DNA of 30,926 nucleotides from positions 1 to 30,926 of the IMG/VR virus record IMGVR_UViG_3300013005_000114. One strand, written 5' to 3'. This DNA comes from a virus. Below the pieces are notes generated by a model that had not been told where the DNA came from, did not search any database, and worked only from the letters and a program-made list of their open reading frames with translations. Of the stretch, positions 11,401-30,926 are shown piece by piece. Position 1 is the first letter of the stretch; the number at the start of each line of letters is the position of its first letter. The position numbers and the translations under genes are program-made.

Positions 11401-14400
11401 ATGGCTGAAGAACAGATAGTCACCCGAATAGTCGCCACGTCCGACTTTTCAAATCTTATCGCAGATCTCGGTAAGGTATCTTCAGCCTTAACTAATCTTC
11501 AAACAAAATTAAACGCAACAAATAAGAATTTAGCAGCACAAGTTGCTGTAATGAATCGTTCTTTTGCAGACACACTTAGAAGCACTGGACAATTTTCCAC
11601 ACACTTTGTAAATTTAACATCTGATGTAGATAAATTTGGATCTCAATTAGACAAAGGCCAAATCAAATTAAAACAATTTTTTCAAGTATATCAAGGACAT
11701 TTAAAAACTAATGGCGGATTAATTAGACAATTAGCTCAACAACAAGTTCAGCTACAAAATGCAATTCTTCAACCTCTTGGCAAAAATGCCGAGGGTTTGA
11801 TGCAGTACAATGTTCACATTCCAACTGGCCTTGATAAGGTAAAAAGCAAAACAGCTTTAGCAAGACAAGAACTACAAATTATGAATCGTGTAGTTCAAGA
11901 AGGAGCAAACTCATTAATTAATTGGGGTAAGAATACCCAGTGGGCTGGTCGTCAATTAACCGTAGGATTAACTGTTCCATTAGCAGCATTTGGAGCTGCA
12001 TCTGCAAAAGCATTTCGAGAAGCCGATCAAGAGTTAACTCGTTTAACAAAGGTTTATGGTGGTTTAGCTGCTACATCAGCAAGTGATTTAGGCAAAATAA
12101 GAAAACAAGTTACTGAAACCGCATCTGAATTATCTAAAGCATACGGTTCTTCATTTAAAGAAACAATTGCATTAGGTGCTGACATTGCTGCAACTGGAAA
12201 GCAAGGTAACGAATTATTAGGCTCAATTAAAGAAACAACTCGTCTAGCAGTTCTTGGTGAAGTAGATAGACAAGATGCAATGAAGGCAACATTAGCAATT
12301 CAATCTGCATTCAAACAAAATACTGATGAACTAGCAGAATCAATTAACTTTTTAAACGCAGTTGAAAACCAGACATCAACAACTCTTAATGACTTAGTAG
12401 AAGCAATTCCTAAAGCTGGTCCAATTATTAAGGGTCTTGGAGGTAGCGTAGAAGATTTAGCATTGTATTTAACTGCAATGAGAGAAGGCGGAATCAATGC
12501 ATCAGAAGGCGCTAACGCTTTAAAGTCAGGACTTGCATCTTTAATTAATCCAACTAAAGTAGCAAAAGAAATGTTTGCTGGATTTGGAATATCATTAACT
12601 GACATTGTTCAAAAAAATGCTGGAAACACAACAAATACATTATTGGCATTACAATCAGCATTAGACAACTTAGATCCATTACAAAAACAACAGGCATTAG
12701 AACAATTATTTGGTAAATTCCAATTTGCTCGTATGAATGCTTTATTTGAAAACCTTGGAAAGCAAGGAAGCCAAACCTTACAAGTAATGGATTTAATGAA
12801 AGCAAGTTCTCAAGATTTAGCAAACATTGCTGGTCGAGAATTAAGTATGGTTACAGAATCCGCTTCTGGTAAGTACAGGAGAGCTCTTGAAGGATTAAAG
12901 GCAGATCTAGCTGTAGTTGGCGAACAGTTTTTAACAATAAATACACATCTAATAAATATTGTTAGTGGAATATTAAAATTTATAGATAAATTACCTGGAC
13001 CAATAAAAACAATTCTAGCTTTCTTTGGAGGACTTACTGCGGTAGCTGGACCACTTATTATGCTTACTGGTGTTCTTGCAAACTTCTTTGGTTATGTAAT
13101 TAAAGGTGCATCTCATTTTAGAGCTATGTTTAAAGGTGGAGAAGGCTGGAGACTCTTAACACCAGAAATACTTGCAGCAAATAAAGCAGGGTCACTTGCA
13201 GAACAAACATTTTATAGTGATGCTAAAGCAGCAGATATATTAAATCAAGCAATATCTAGACTGTCTGCTTCATATAATAAATTAGCAGCAGATGCATCAA
13301 ATGCAATAATTCAAACAAACCCAGGAGTATCTACTATGGGTGGAACAAATATTATTGCTGGACAAAGAGTAGTAAATCCTAATCACCCGCTTGTGGGAGA
13401 TGTAGGCACAAGAGCTGCTTCACACCATAACCCAAGAGCATTAATGAGTAAAGGACAAAGAGATGCTCAAACAATTCACTCTGTTACCCCAGGATCAATT
13501 GATGTAAATCAAAAAATAGGAACTGTTCCTCAAATATTTATGGCAGGGGATCTGCCAAAAATTGAAGGATTAACATCTTCAAGAGGGGCTTCTACGGGAA
13601 TAGTTGCTGGAGAAGCAGCAAAGTGGCATTCTCTAATGGGTACATTGTCTATGATGACAAAAAGAGAAGTTGCAGATTTAAAGAAAGAAATTGCTAGAAC
13701 AGGAACATTTAGCACAGAAATAAATACTACATTCGGACAGCTTCTTCCAGCAATGACAAAAATAACAACCAATGCAGCATCACAATCTGCATTAATTGTT
13801 CAACAACTACAAGCAGGAAAAATTACGTTAGATACTGCTCGTGCAAAAATTATTGCAATAAATTCACAGCTAGAAGCAATGATGGCGCAAACAACTGCTC
13901 AAGTTGCTGCAGATCTTGGAAGAACCGCTAATTTAACACAAGTTCCTTTAATTAATCAGCCAATAGTTGGACCTACAGGTAAAGCAAACATTAAAGAAAT
14001 CTTTAGACCAAATAGGCCAGCATCAAAAATCATAGATAAAATTGCAAGATCTCTTGGGGTAAGAACATACGGGGCAGGATATTCAACAGAAACAACAATG
14101 CCAAAGAAATTTGCAACAGGCGGAATGGTTGTTCCTGGGCCAAGATCAGACACAACAGATACTCAATTTATGAATTTGGTAGAGGGAGATATTGTATTAA
14201 ATAGAAAAGCATCAGATAATTTAATGGGTTACAATCAAGGTGGAAAAGTAGTACCAGCAATGGTAACTCCTGGAGAAATTATAATTAATAATCCAACACC
14301 ATCAGAATCTGAAATGCTACTAGCCTATAACAATCAATTTGCAGTTGGCGGCAGGGTTGTGGCTTCAAAAAATAATTATGGCTTGACAGGTCTTGGAAGA

Positions 14401-26425: not shown

Positions 26426-28830
26426 TGTCAGCAAAAGCTTATGTTAAAGTTACCAGTGGTTTATGGAAACAGGTAAATAAAGTATATGTTAAAGTAACTC
26501 CTACATTATGGAAAGCGGTAAACAATGTTTACGTTAAAGTTACTTCTACTTTATGGAAAAAAACATTTAGTGGTTCAAATCAACCAATACAAATAACTAG
26601 GCCTACATTAACTGGAACTGGTAGAGTTGGTACAACAGTAACCAGATCTTCTGGAACATACAGCAATTATAATTCATTAATTACTAGAATATTTTATACA
26701 ACCGAAGTTGCAGAACAAGTATCAGCATCGACTACTGATCCTAGCGGTGGTAATATAACCGCTACAAATCCATATACAATTACCCAGTATGACGCAACCG
26801 TACCACAATATTATTTTTATGCAAGAGATGAAGTGCTTGGAGTAGATAATGAAACATACTATTATTACAGCACTCCACCAATAGAAGCAAACCTTCCATC
26901 TTTAGAAGACAATTTTAATAGAACTGTTGCAAGTGGTTTAGGTACAGCAAGTAGTGGATTTATTTACAGTGGACCGTCAAGAAGTAATGCTACATGGAGT
27001 GTAAATGGAAGTAGAGCAGTAAATAATTCTGGATCTTCTTATCCTATGAAAACAGTTGATTCTGTAAACAGTAATCAATCAGTTTCTGTTGATACTTTTG
27101 GTGGCGGTTTAGGAGTAGCAGTATGGGTAGACTCAACTTCTTCTTTTTGGTCAGTAGTACCAGATTATGAATATGTATCCGAACAAGCATTTAGTTATGA
27201 GTGTGATAGTAATATAACTTATGTATTAAATCCAGAAACAGAAGATTGTCCACCCTTAGCAACTTTAGGTTCAAATCCACAATCTCCTGGATATACATCT
27301 AACGATGTTGGATTAAGATGTAGTGCATGTACCACATCAACAACAAATGTAACAACTAGTCAATGTCCTACTGGAGAAATCTATGTTACTACATCAACCT
27401 GTCCAGATTTTGGATCATTGGGTGGAGATAGATGTACAGTATGTCAAGAAGTTTCAAGCACATCTTCTGTACTAACTTGTTCTGGGTCTAGCTCTGGGAG
27501 CTCTTGTCCAGGTACTGGAAGTAGTGTTGGACAAAGATGCAGCGCCTGTAATTCCACAGCAGTATGTACTGGATCACAAGTTTCTACATCTTGCCCAGAT
27601 ACTGGACCAAACGTAGGAGATAGATGTGGATCATGTTCTGGAGAACCAGAAACAGTTTCTGTATTAACCTGTTCTGGATCTGATAGCTCAACATCTTGCC
27701 CAGGTACTGGAAGTTCTGTAGGACAAAGATGTGGTGCTTGTAACTCTTTTGCATCATGCAGTGGTTCTACTACAACTAGTTCATGCCCAGATACTGGACC
27801 AAACGTAGGAGATAGATGTGGATCTTGTTCTTTAAACATAGACTCTTCTACATCAATAACTTGTTCTGGATCTGGATCTGGAGGATCTTGCCCAGGTACT
27901 GGAAGTTCTGTTGGGCAAAGATGTTCATCATGTAGTTCATCTACATCAACTTCAAATCTTTGTACTGGTTCTAGCAGCTCAACATCTTGTCCAGATACTG
28001 GACCAAATGCTGGAGACCGATGCGGTGCATGTTCTCCTAGCACTTCAACATCTTATTCATGTACTGGATCAGGTACATTTGCATCAACACAATCAACGGG
28101 AAGTTGTAACGCAAGTAGAGTAGGGCTGGCATGTTCATTTACTGGAACATCTGGAACTGGAGATAGGTTAAGATATAATTATACAATATGTCGAGCAAAT
28201 AGTACTACAACAAATAGTTATGCTGTAAGACAAAGTGTAACAACAACAACCTATAGCTGGTCAACAAATGAATCTCAAACCACAACAACAACAAGCTATA
28301 GCTATTCAGTTAGAGTACAAGCTTATAGTTATTCAACTAATGCTTATCAAAATCAAACAATAACATATTATACTTATGCAATTAGACAACAAGGATATAC
28401 ATGGTCAACAAATGCTTATGAAGATGTTACTACTATAACTTATAAATATAAAGTAAGACAAGATATTACAACTCAAGTAACTACAAAATACTATAATGCA
28501 GTAAAAGAAGTTAATACATTTAAATATACATATAATTCAAAAGTAAAAATGTACCAGTTTACTAGCGGAACTCCTACTTTAATTTCATCACAAACCGTAG
28601 CCACATTTACAGGTGAACCTGGAACCGCATATAGTACAATATATTACGTACCAATAACTAAAGTTTCTGCAACAACCCTAGGAGACTCAATTTCTGGAAT
28701 TGGGTGGGTTGGAGGACTTTCTGGAGCAGCAAATTATACTTATTCAGGGTCTAAGGGAACAGCTGTTGGAGTAATTGCAATGACAGCAACAGAAAATCAA
28801 GGTAGTACGTTAGACAATTTCTCAGCCTAA
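26425..28830 (+). CDS. Repeat-rich putative receptor-binding fibre protein
   Basis: An 801-residue mosaic protein. Residues 6-48 hold three tandem copies of a 15-residue unit built on YVKVT-x-x-LWK. Residues about 150-258 are a ConA-like region with DNFNRTVASGLGTASSGF. Residues about 275-536 are a cysteine-rich array of eight CP-x-TG-x(3)-G-x-RC-x(2)-C units. Residues about 597-700 hold a Tyr/Trp-rich repeat of 24 residues built on YSVRQ and WSTNAY. The rest (about 700-801) is a Gly/Ser-rich beta end. No enzyme motif is visible. The layout, and its place at the end of the fibre cluster, fit an adhesive or receptor-binding tail protein. The cysteine array implies many disulfides or bound metal, unusual for a protein folded in the bacterial cytoplasm. 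A promoter and a strong ribosome site start the next gene. Confidence 0.7.
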   Translation: MSAKAYVKVTSGLWKQVNKVYVKVTPTLWKAVNNVYVKVTSTLWKKTFSGSNQPIQITRPTLTGTGRVGTTVTRSSGTYSNYNSLITRIFYTTEVAEQVSASTTDPSGGNITATNPYTITQYDATVPQYYFYARDEVLGVDNETYYYYSTPPIEANLPSLEDNFNRTVASGLGTASSGFIYSGPSRSNATWSVNGSRAVNNSGSSYPMKTVDSVNSNQSVSVDTFGGGLGVAVWVDSTSSFWSVVPDYEYVSEQAFSYECDSNITYVLNPETEDCPPLATLGSNPQSPGYTSNDVGLRCSACTTSTTNVTTSQCPTGEIYVTTSTCPDFGSLGGDRCTVCQEVSSTSSVLTCSGSSSGSSCPGTGSSVGQRCSACNSTAVCTGSQVSTSCPDTGPNVGDRCGSCSGEPETVSVLTCSGSDSSTSCPGTGSSVGQRCGACNSFASCSGSTTTSSCPDTGPNVGDRCGSCSLNIDSSTSITCSGSGSGGSCPGTGSSVGQRCSSCSSSTSTSNLCTGSSSSTSCPDTGPNAGDRCGACSPSTSTSYSCTGSGTFASTQSTGSCNASRVGLACSFTGTSGTGDRLRYNYTICRANSTTTNSYAVRQSVTTTTYSWSTNESQTTTTTSYSYSVRVQAYSYSTNAYQNQTITYYTYAIRQQGYTWSTNAYEDVTTITYKYKVRQDITTQVTTKYYNAVKEVNTFKYTYNSKVKMYQFTSGTPTLISSQTVATFTGEPGTAYSTIYYVPITKVSATTLGDSISGIGWVGGLSGAANYTYSGSKGTAVGVIAMTATENQGSTLDNFSA
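26440..26571 (+). repeat. Three tandem 45-base units coding YVKVT-LWK repeats
   Basis: Units start at 26440, 26485 and 26530, exactly 45 bases apart. Each codes YVKVT, two variable residues and LWK; the first two also share VN and a Val. Coding repeats of the YVKV/WK type occur in other phage tail proteins. Confidence 0.85.
27247..28032 (+). repeat. Cysteine-rich coding repeat array, 192-base super-period
   Basis: Eight units end in RC-x-x-C. The first two are degenerate; the last six alternate two types, CPGTGSSVGQRC (starting 27505, 27697, 27889) and CPDTGPNVGDRC (27592, 27784, 27988). The first type repeats at exactly 192 bases. Two second-type copies share 41 identical bases (27592-27632 and 27784-27824). 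Confidence 0.9.
28219..28461 (+). repeat. Tyr/Trp-rich coding repeat, 72-base period
   Basis: YAVR, YSVR, YAIR and YKVR begin at 28219, 28303, 28375 and 28447; the WSTN, YSTN, WSTN elements at 28258, 28330 and 28402 are exactly 72 bases apart. Each unit would form a beta-hairpin-like layer. Confidence 0.8.
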
Positions 28831-29790: not shown

Positions 29791-30136
29791 TTTCCCTTCA
29801 GGAATTGCTGTTAAAACAGACAAGGGTACTTACTGGATTAAAGACGGAAAGAGATACAAGTTGATATCTAAAAGAGCAGAGGAGTCTTGGTCTTTTACTA
29901 CAGTAAATGCTACAGAGTCTGCCTTATCTTTAATTAAGCAGTCTGGTAAATTAGGGTTTAGAGACGGCGCTTTGATCAAGAACATTGCAGATGGTAAAAT
30001 GTATTTAATATCGCAAAATAAAAAGCGTCATATTGTGAACCCAGATTCATTTTCTAAATATGGACTTAATAGGTCTAATATTGTAGAAGTAAGCGAATCG
30101 GAAATAAATTCACATGAATTAGGAGAAAATTTATAA
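29732..30136 (+). CDS. Cell-surface-type repeat protein, unclear start
   Basis: From the ATG at 29732 the product is 134 residues. The convincing part begins near 29790: DFPSGIAVKTDKGTYWIKDG, then KRYKLIS and a GKLGFRDGALI segment, ending with DGKMYLISQNKKRHIVNPDS, then KYGLNRSNIVEVSESEINSH. This last motif, Y-L-I-x-x-x-K-K-R-H-I followed by a helix and V-x-x-V-S, occurs in repeats of bacterial surface and wall-bound proteins, so the gene may encode a wall- or glycan-contacting part of the virion. The first about 20 residues overlap the previous gene in a different frame and are Lys/Gln-rich, as expected for a shadow. No ATG, GTG or TTG follows in frame before the domain, so either 29732 is used with a poor ribosome site or the true product is joined to the upstream coiled-coil gene. 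Confidence 0.6.
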   Translation: MLKIKQKKNTQSILITSPTDFPSGIAVKTDKGTYWIKDGKRYKLISKRAEESWSFTTVNATESALSLIKQSGKLGFRDGALIKNIADGKMYLISQNKKRHIVNPDSFSKYGLNRSNIVEVSESEINSHELGENL

Positions 30137-30561
30137 TGGCAGCAAATTGGAAAGTTGTAACATTTAATGAGGGTGCCCCATTTGACCCAAATGATTTAAA
30201 TCAATTACAAGATAATTTAACAGATGTTTTTACAAAATCTACAAGCTTATTAAATGCTACAAAAGACTCTAGCGGTAAAAATAGAGTAGCGGTCACAGAT
30301 CAAGGCACAGCATCAATAATATTAAAAGGCACAACTCCAGCATCCGTATCAGTAACATTTACTCCGTCATTTACAGCAGGTACAGATACTGGATTTGTTG
30401 CATCAATGGCACAGGCTTTAACTTCTACAACAGGAAATGTATCCGTATCGGCAGTTTTAAATACAGATAAAACAGGCGGAACAATATATGCGGTAAGCAA
30501 TAAAACAACCACTTCAACAATAAGTGTTAATTGGATAGCAACTCAACTTAAAACTATTTAA
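30136..30561 (+). CDS. Small tail/fibre-tip-like protein
   Basis: A 141-residue protein with an N-terminal attachment-like segment (WKVVTFNEGAPFDPNDLNQL, followed by QDNLTDVF), a form seen in many small phage tail proteins, then a beta-rich C-terminal part, ASVSVTFTPSFTAGTDTGFV and GTIYAVSNKTTTSTISVNWI, that resembles the compact tip domains of phage fibres. Cysteine-free, Thr/Ser-rich. Start overlaps the previous stop and has AGGAG 10 bases upstream. It is the last of the structural genes seen here. No enzyme motif. Confidence 0.7.
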   Translation: MAANWKVVTFNEGAPFDPNDLNQLQDNLTDVFTKSTSLLNATKDSSGKNRVAVTDQGTASIILKGTTPASVSVTFTPSFTAGTDTGFVASMAQALTSTTGNVSVSAVLNTDKTGGTIYAVSNKTTTSTISVNWIATQLKTI

Positions 30562-30564
30562 TGC

Positions 30565-30592
30565 TTGACAGGTTATAAGAATATGTTAAAAT
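30565..30592 (+). promoter_or_regulatory. Consensus -35 promoter before a mini-ORF and terminator
   Basis: TTGACA (perfect -35) and TAAAAT (-10) are 16 bases apart, with TG one base before the -10. The predicted start of transcription is at or next to an ATG at 30598. It lies just after the last structural gene. Confidence 0.65.
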
Positions 30593-30597
30593 ATAGC

Positions 30598-30624
30598 ATG
30601 TTCAATAAAGTCACGAAACCGTGA
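30598..30624 (+). CDS. Candidate leader peptide, 8 residues
   Basis: ATG at 30598 opens an 8-codon frame, MFNKVTKP, ending in TGA inside the following terminator hairpin. There is no Shine-Dalgarno sequence; the promoter would deliver a leaderless message. It may be chance, but the nested layout of promoter, ORF and hairpin is that of an attenuator. No run of a single regulatory codon is present. Confidence 0.3.
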   Translation: MFNKVTKP

Positions 30625-30631
30625 CTTTTTT
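30606..30631 (+). terminator. Intrinsic terminator or attenuator
   Basis: AGTCACG and CGTGACT form a 7-base stem with a 4-base loop (AAAC), followed by a run of six T. It is the only terminator in the window that lies just downstream of a promoter and before a gene, and it probably also ends transcripts from the structural genes. Confidence 0.8.
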
Positions 30632-30647
30632 AATTTAAGGATATTAA

Positions 30648-30926
30648 ATGTCTAATGATTTAAAGTGGATGCTGTCATCGGATCAGCAATTTCCATATCA
30701 AGATGATAAAATGATTGAGCTTTGGTTTAAGGTTATGAAGTGGTTTAAGCCAGATGTTGTAGACTATCTTGGCGACACAGATGATCAGGCCTGCTACAGT
30801 AGATTTACAGAAGGAAAGCCAACAGAGTTTTTAAAGGCATACAAGAATGACGACGTAACAAATGATTTAGAGTTAATGCTAAAAGACATGAAGTTTGAGG
30901 CAAGTGGTGCCCGTGAATTTTATGAA
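30648..30926 (+). CDS. Calcineurin-like metallophosphoesterase, 3' partial
   Basis: The first 93 residues are visible. SSDQQFPYQDDKMIEL is followed by MKWFKPDVVDYLGDTDDQ and then CYSRF, which matches the first two metal-site blocks of calcineurin-like phosphoesterases (D-x-H...GD-x-x-D). The first block carries DQQ in place of DxH; Gln in that place is known in phage members of the family. Such enzymes in phages are often DNA or nucleotide phosphoesterases; the substrate here is not known. AAGGA lies 6 bases before the ATG. It follows a terminator, so its transcription depends on read-through of the attenuator-like leader or a promoter not recognised. The C-terminal part lies outside the window. 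Confidence 0.75.
   Translation, partial: MSNDLKWMLSSDQQFPYQDDKMIELWFKVMKWFKPDVVDYLGDTDDQACYSRFTEGKPTEFLKAYKNDDVTNDLELMLKDMKFEASGAREFYE

Follow-up and report, generated by a model that had tools for sequence, protein, structure and literature searches.

A conserved promoter overlapped by predicted RNA hairpins at a probable operon boundary ahead of a phage phosphoesterase gene

Our analysis suggests that the intergenic region ahead of a phage metallo-phosphoesterase gene is probably an operon-boundary element, i.e. a promoter overlapped by RNA hairpins and working without a leader peptide. By comparison of relatives, the promoter and the structure of a hairpin directly downstream of it (hairpin 2) are conserved, most relatives also carry a U-tract behind this hairpin as well as an inverted repeat over the −10 element (hairpin 1), and a short open reading frame in the same place is not conserved; that the promoter is active, that transcripts terminate and what hairpin 1 does are what we infer from these patterns. 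A leader-peptide attenuator, which is a tempting way to read this region, appears to be wrong and is replaced by a conserved layout in which covarying hairpins lie over promoters at operon boundaries. The phage group that carries this layout is common in public viral contigs.

The window, by which we mean the whole stretch of DNA analysed, is a virus record of 30,926 nt (IMGVR_UViG_3300013005_000114; ~30.9 kb) that encodes portal, protease, capsid and tail genes, and all features given below with window coordinates lie on its + strand. At the tail end of this gene cluster, a small gene of unknown product (30136–30561; 141 aa; compared in relatives as well) has its stop codon, at 30561, 3 bases 5' of the −35 element, so that the promoter–hairpin element fills the entire intergenic gap. 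The phosphoesterase gene (30648–30926; phrog_221, 8.8e-16) runs off the window and encodes 271 aa in relatives. It stands 3' of tail-end genes in the three annotated stretches read, and in TunaTartare a DnaB helicase gene comes after it. Relatives of this gene in cultured phages belong to Rhodococcus, Streptomyces, Mycobacterium and Gordonia phages; a WhiB gene (PF02467) in a close relative of the window and the Rhodococcus, Streptomyces and Mycobacterium phages point to a host that is probably actinobacterial. Searching bacterial genomes with the phosphoesterase gave no confirmed relative and thus does not fix the host.

The promoter consists of a −35 element TTGACA (30565–30570), a spacer of 16 nt (30571–30586) and the −10 element TAAAAT (30587–30592), which is preceded by TG(t) at 30584–30586, the entire extended −10 TGtTAAAAT covering 30584–30592 and appearing as TGYTAMAAT with a spacer of 16 in relatives. 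Having hexamers within the 16–18 nt distance typical of σ70/SigA-type promoters, TGn in front of the −10 and conservation in relatives, it is predicted to be active as a promoter of host σA (σ70 type). To sample relatives, IMG/VR was scanned with the phosphoesterase and the two preceding genes, which resulted in 167 loci, most of them with a single match to the promoter pattern TTGAC..ATGYTAMAAT; de-duplication of the matching loci left 66 distinct sequences. In the loci read, the matches stand ahead of the phosphoesterase gene, and a slightly stricter pattern scanned against 16 large relatives is found once each in 8 of them and never twice. As the pattern itself fixed most promoter letters, including TTGAC, it is not these letters that are informative, but the single constant place and the sixth −35 base, which is A in at least 90% of the 66 relatives.

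Generic scans of the window show no overall enrichment of either promoters (39 versus 48.8 expected) or terminators (4 versus 5.2 expected). The best-scoring promoter of the window is the one ahead of the phosphoesterase gene, and no other strong promoter, either in the window or in the relative G010, has a strong hairpin plus U-tract after it. The decisive point, however, is conservation in 66 distinct relatives, from which we conclude that the combination of promoter and hairpin is not due to chance. Other ideas about this site were rejected: a bidirectional promoter based on the palindromic −10 (by eye, the reverse −10 lacks its last T in many relatives), an operator family with several copies (only one copy per genome was found) and a replication origin (the GC skew of G010 does not change direction at this site).

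Hairpin 2 (30607–30628) has a terminator-like 9-bp stem formed by AAAGTCACG (30607–30615) and CGTGACTTT (30620–30628) around the loop AAAC, spans about +8 to +29 relative to the predicted start site and runs into a T6 tract (30626–30631), which is followed by the ribosome-binding site AAGGA (30637–30641; AAGG is kept in most relatives). It thus has the structure of an intrinsic terminator, i.e. a stem of 9 bp followed by T6 in the window and a U-tract of at least five T in 53 of the 66 relatives. For the RNA from 30575 to 30635 the predicted fold, in which both hairpins form, has a z-score of −7.3. Every one of the 66 relatives has a hairpin of 5–11 bp whose first base falls between +3 and +12 of the predicted transcript; in their alignment, 96% of the cells of hairpin 2 are paired, compared with at most 58% in slid controls, and compensatory changes on both sides are found in eight of the nine pairs. 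The most variable inner pair (column 49-64) is U-A in 45, C-G in 15 and U-G in 5 relatives, with one cell unpaired, which is the pattern expected of a sense-strand RNA. The first-pass annotation had correctly recognized the consensus −35 with its extended −10, the perfect hairpin with six T and an ATG with an 8-codon frame ending inside that hairpin, and the order it had described, an odd one with a promoter placed before a terminator-like hairpin, is real and conserved in the 66 relatives.

On the phosphoesterase-gene tree the type of stem switches at least eight times and the U-tract, missing in 13 of the 66 relatives, at least four times. Besides GTCAC, the stems GTTGC, GCCAC and GGTCATG occur, most of them again with a U-tract, as well as GGCCATGA without one; mostly, the U-tract reappears after newly acquired stems. 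Judging from these switches, selection on hairpin 2 acts on its structure, usually on the U-tract and little on the sequence of the stem. Where an HNH gene is located immediately upstream, the hairpins are all weak, which speaks against the boundary reading that we favour below. A search of Rfam 15 with the element returned a chance-level match only (12.2 bits, with a gathering score of 40). In L093, as compared with L001, the element is nearly the same as that of the window and the phosphoesterase is far off on the tree, suggesting recombination at this point between the genes. In the relative L101 (3893–3957), the terminator stem GAGTTGC/GCAACTT could be spanned by an alternative pairing of GCGGGTA..TACCCGC, an arrangement that resembles a terminator/antiterminator switch.

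What does the short frame between promoter and hairpin contribute? It reads ATG TTC AAT AAA GTC ACG AAA CCG TGA (30598–30624; MFNKVTKP), with the ATG (30598–30600) starting at the sixth base after the −10 and the end at 30624 lying in the 3' arm of hairpin 2; it could possibly be 'leaderless', which requires transcription to start exactly at the ATG at 30598. In the attenuator proposed in the first-pass annotation, translation of these eight codons decides whether the terminator forms, and promoter, ATG, a stop within the stem and T6 do follow each other in the correct order, as in the leader-peptide attenuators of the trp type. Yet, the frame (MFN/YKVTKP) is present in only 4 of the 66 distinct relatives (L001, L008, L046 and L089), which is about chance level, with an ATG frame of up to 12 codons beginning in ~5% of random 5-nt slots of the window. 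L093, with an element otherwise nearly as in the window, has CATATT for CATGTT and hence ATA rather than ATG, and L006, L011 and L020 do not have the frame, even though their phosphoesterases are almost identical to that of the window and they are its neighbours on the tree. Moreover, both ends of the frame are explained by the hairpins: the TGA in the 3' arm comes automatically with a GTCAC stem, which always places TGA there, and the ATG, which exists only via one wobble base, belongs to that arm of hairpin 1 whose partner is the extended −10. There is no run of regulatory codons, and folding of the promoter-derived RNA in search of an antiterminator yielded no competing fold, but just hairpin 2 together with a weak AU stem located at the start codon; the element differs from the trp-type systems in its frame, which is not conserved and ends within the terminator stem itself, and in having no alternative fold. 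With its start not conserved and its stop built into the stem, the frame is, on this comparative evidence, a by-product of the hairpins and no real gene. The first-pass annotation had itself named conservation of frame and stem in relatives as the check, and a hairpin conserved without the frame as the outcome that would speak against a leader peptide; the stem, held by compensatory changes, passed this check, the frame did not, and an attenuator with a translated leader is rejected as extremely improbable.

In the reading that we consider probable, the host σA promoter would start a transcription unit whose first gene is the phosphoesterase and which probably runs on into replication genes, while RNA coming from the tail genes would meet hairpin 1, hairpin 2 and T6 and end there, with hairpin 2 plus T6 serving as an intrinsic terminator. 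In the promoter's own transcript, hairpin 2 would lie within the first ~30 nt and act as a 5' leader stem–loop, which probably halts some of these transcripts at about +36. Hairpin 1, present as RNA only in read-through transcripts, would help to end or process these. Against this reading stands that a terminator 30 nt past its own promoter should stop the phosphoesterase transcript as well, and such stopping may be either partial, with attenuation and a tiny RNA, or weak so close to a promoter. A tiny RNA of ~36 nt, resulting from termination at T6, is thus possible.

As a rival reading, the element could be a plain intrinsic terminator of the tail operon with a weak or unused promoter overlapping it just upstream. 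The 9-bp stem with T6, the U-tract in 53 of 66 relatives and the position at the end of the tail-gene cluster are what one would expect in this case, and a GC-containing stem with a U-tract at the end of a gene cluster is indeed what the element shares with Rho-independent terminators in general. However, only 8 nt lie between its stem and the point at which a conserved promoter is predicted to start transcription, and in the relatives this promoter stays at one place before the gene with unchanged spacing. In addition, the stem outlives the U-tract in several relatives, and sampled phages of other clades keep promoter and hairpin without a clear U-tract. In the set of Streptomyces phages compared, all 12 listed with an intergenic gap have a 10–14 bp short-loop hairpin before the phosphoesterase gene, and in 11 of them TTGAC(A/T)-17-TAnnnT is found just 5' of the hairpin, where it overlaps an HNH gene at its end (for the twelfth, Phredrick, the excerpt begins within the −35), with a clear U-tract in none of the 12. 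We therefore regard a plain terminator as unlikely. With the U-tract absent in 13 of 66 relatives and not clear in the Streptomyces phages, termination cannot be the sole role of hairpin 2, and its role as a leader stem–loop would stay in lineages without a U-tract. These lineages may terminate too, since a recent review, which also cites contrary data (PMC12288462), states that hairpins lacking a U-tract can be used by the mycobacterial polymerase.

Among other cultured phages, Rhodococcus phage Dorin has a hairpin and no clear promoter, NootNoot has no comparable strong hairpin in its 42-nt gap, and the element is absent from Weasels2, Grayson, Trina, NiceHouse, Wakanda, BillNye and Faust, in which the two genes are separated by hardly any gap. 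An HNH endonuclease gene adjoins the phosphoesterase gene upstream in L043, L048, L049, L065, L073, L076, L185, L187, L188 and L191; it is annotated as such in the Streptomyces phages, where its 3' end overlaps the promoter, and HNH-like by eye in the uncultured ones.

An alternative that does make use of the promoter is attenuation without a leader peptide, in which hairpin 2 halts most transcripts at ~+36 until a phage or host factor (an antiterminator, a NusG-type or an RNA-binding protein) permits passage, with the tiny RNA as a by-product. Promoter-proximal terminators under antitermination, where a promoter and then a terminator precede the genes, are represented by pR'-tR' of lambda with its Q protein and by the put RNA of HK022. 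Such control would be compatible with the conserved terminator, which lies close to the start site at a fixed distance and is present in a single copy ahead of the phosphoesterase gene. But in the element the terminator is only ~30 nt from the start site and no antiterminator was identified; several lineages have lost the U-tract, and there is no conserved protein-binding sequence besides the stem, the sequences of which are freely replaced. Peptide-free attenuation thus seems a minor, though real, possibility.

Hairpin 1 (30579–30603), the second constituent of the probable boundary element, is an inverted repeat over the −10, formed by GAATATGTTA (30579–30588), AAATA and TAGCATGTTC (30594–30603), with the −10 lying within its 5' arm and loop; both arms occur together only in RNA that arrives from upstream. 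The sequence that follows the −10 is more complementary to the −10 region than shuffled sequence is (p<0.05) in 45 of the 66 relatives, and promoter-region RNA of relatives has a median fold z of −2.0, with 0 for control stretches. About a third of the relatives do not have this downstream partner arm; a partner is found on the upstream side in 8 of these 21 relatives versus 2 of the remaining 45, a difference (Fisher p 0.001) that is suggestive as the rows are related. A strong pyrimidine–purine coupling (Fisher p 2e-6) exists between the T/C base of the −10 and the base it pairs with, with T-A in 21, C-G in 20, T-G in 5 and C-A in 3 cases in an anchored recount. An ungapped search had hinted at a strand bias of wobble pairs, with no C-A, which did not survive this recount, and with T-G 5 and C-A 3, hairpin 1 alone cannot settle whether RNA or DNA is the relevant form.

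A dyad over the −10 could also act at the DNA level, as an operator to which a phage repressor or activator binds; this has been proposed for the ESAS of cluster K mycobacteriophages, which are present in multiple copies with SAS at the start codon and for which the authors find little support for RNA pairing (PMC3203893, PMC11373665). This is the nearest published case: both have a SigA-like promoter with an overlapping imperfect inverted repeat, a variable spacer and a location 5' of actinobacterial phage genes. The precedent, the strong coupling of the arms and their likeness in sequence in most relatives all agree with an operator. However, the offset between the arms varies from 10 to 17 and the partner arm can stand on either side, and this variable spacing and side favour an RNA hairpin. 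Unlike ESAS, the element is present in one copy per genome (one match in each of 8 records, and a TGYTACA dyad that does not recur in G010) and includes a second hairpin with a U-tract, and the 13-bp SAS GGGATAGGAGCCC is not found at the start codon, where TTTAAGGATATTAA precedes the ATG. With another promoter having arms of unrelated sequence as well, an operator appears improbable.

This other strong promoter is located in G010 at 84744, with its −10 inside an 11-bp inverted repeat, and the arms at the corresponding promoters of other phages are of quite another sequence. It represents a second family in related phages, TTGACA-NAGCCGYAG..TGTATAAT..CTRCGGTTT (L181:4744-4800, i.e. G010:C1:84744, and loci L199-L293), in which the promoter lies inside a long covarying hairpin 5' of a WhiB-like gene region or a tRNA-Asn gene, with several copies directly 5' of the latter. 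When the IMG/VR collection was scanned with a pattern limited to the −35, the left arm and the −10, 117 stretches matched, with 59 distinct sequences in the loci read, and 56 of these 59 have a complementary right arm downstream of the −10, giving stems of 8–17 bp around the promoter. The left-arm letter left unspecified is paired as C-G in 30, T-A in 19, T-G in 8 and C-A in none of 57 cases, an asymmetry that fits a sense-strand RNA, and such RNA must have begun upstream of the promoter. Across 13 aligned pairs, pairing amounts to 93%, with double changes in six of them; the rows of this alignment were preselected by a right-arm filter, the unbiased test being the scan in which the right arm was left unspecified (56/59). 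Rfam returned nothing besides the tRNA for this family.

Hairpin 1 and the second family, i.e. promoters of the phosphoesterase and of WhiB/tRNA-Asn with unrelated sequences, might be recurrent cases of boundary hairpins that exempt their own transcripts: with the 5' arm upstream and the 3' arm downstream of the start, incoming RNA would fold and be ended or cut, and transcripts from the promoter itself, lacking the 5' arm, would pass. We propose this tentatively, as a possibility that falls short of being likely; if true, it would provide a simple insulation of neighbouring transcription units that takes up no space for a separate terminator. In phage T7, promoters coincide with RNase III processing hairpins, the promoter being embedded in a hairpin of a longer read-through transcript. 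The promoter of the element is of host type in contrast to that of T7, and the likeness lies in the embedding. A literature search that included promoter/terminator overlap and T7 RNase III sites found no exact precedent of the layout. The promoter and the terminator are ordinary parts, and the element seems to be a variant in which the conserved order of promoter and then hairpin, and a −10 inside a hairpin of read-through RNA, are new.

Further observations concern other parts of these genomes. A 284-aa protein ends in what looks like a reusable C-terminal module (L181:4543-4694; ..CWSGYKQVGMKEKNGRMVPNCVP), with matches to this stretch found at other places in the DNA of several relatives, separately from the remainder of the gene. 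Two near-identical strong terminators (GGCCCCC..GGGGGCTTTT; L178:7775-7804 and 11817-11844, i.e. G010:27775 and 31817) come after genes ending at 27757 and 31796, which likely encode the capsid and the major tail protein.
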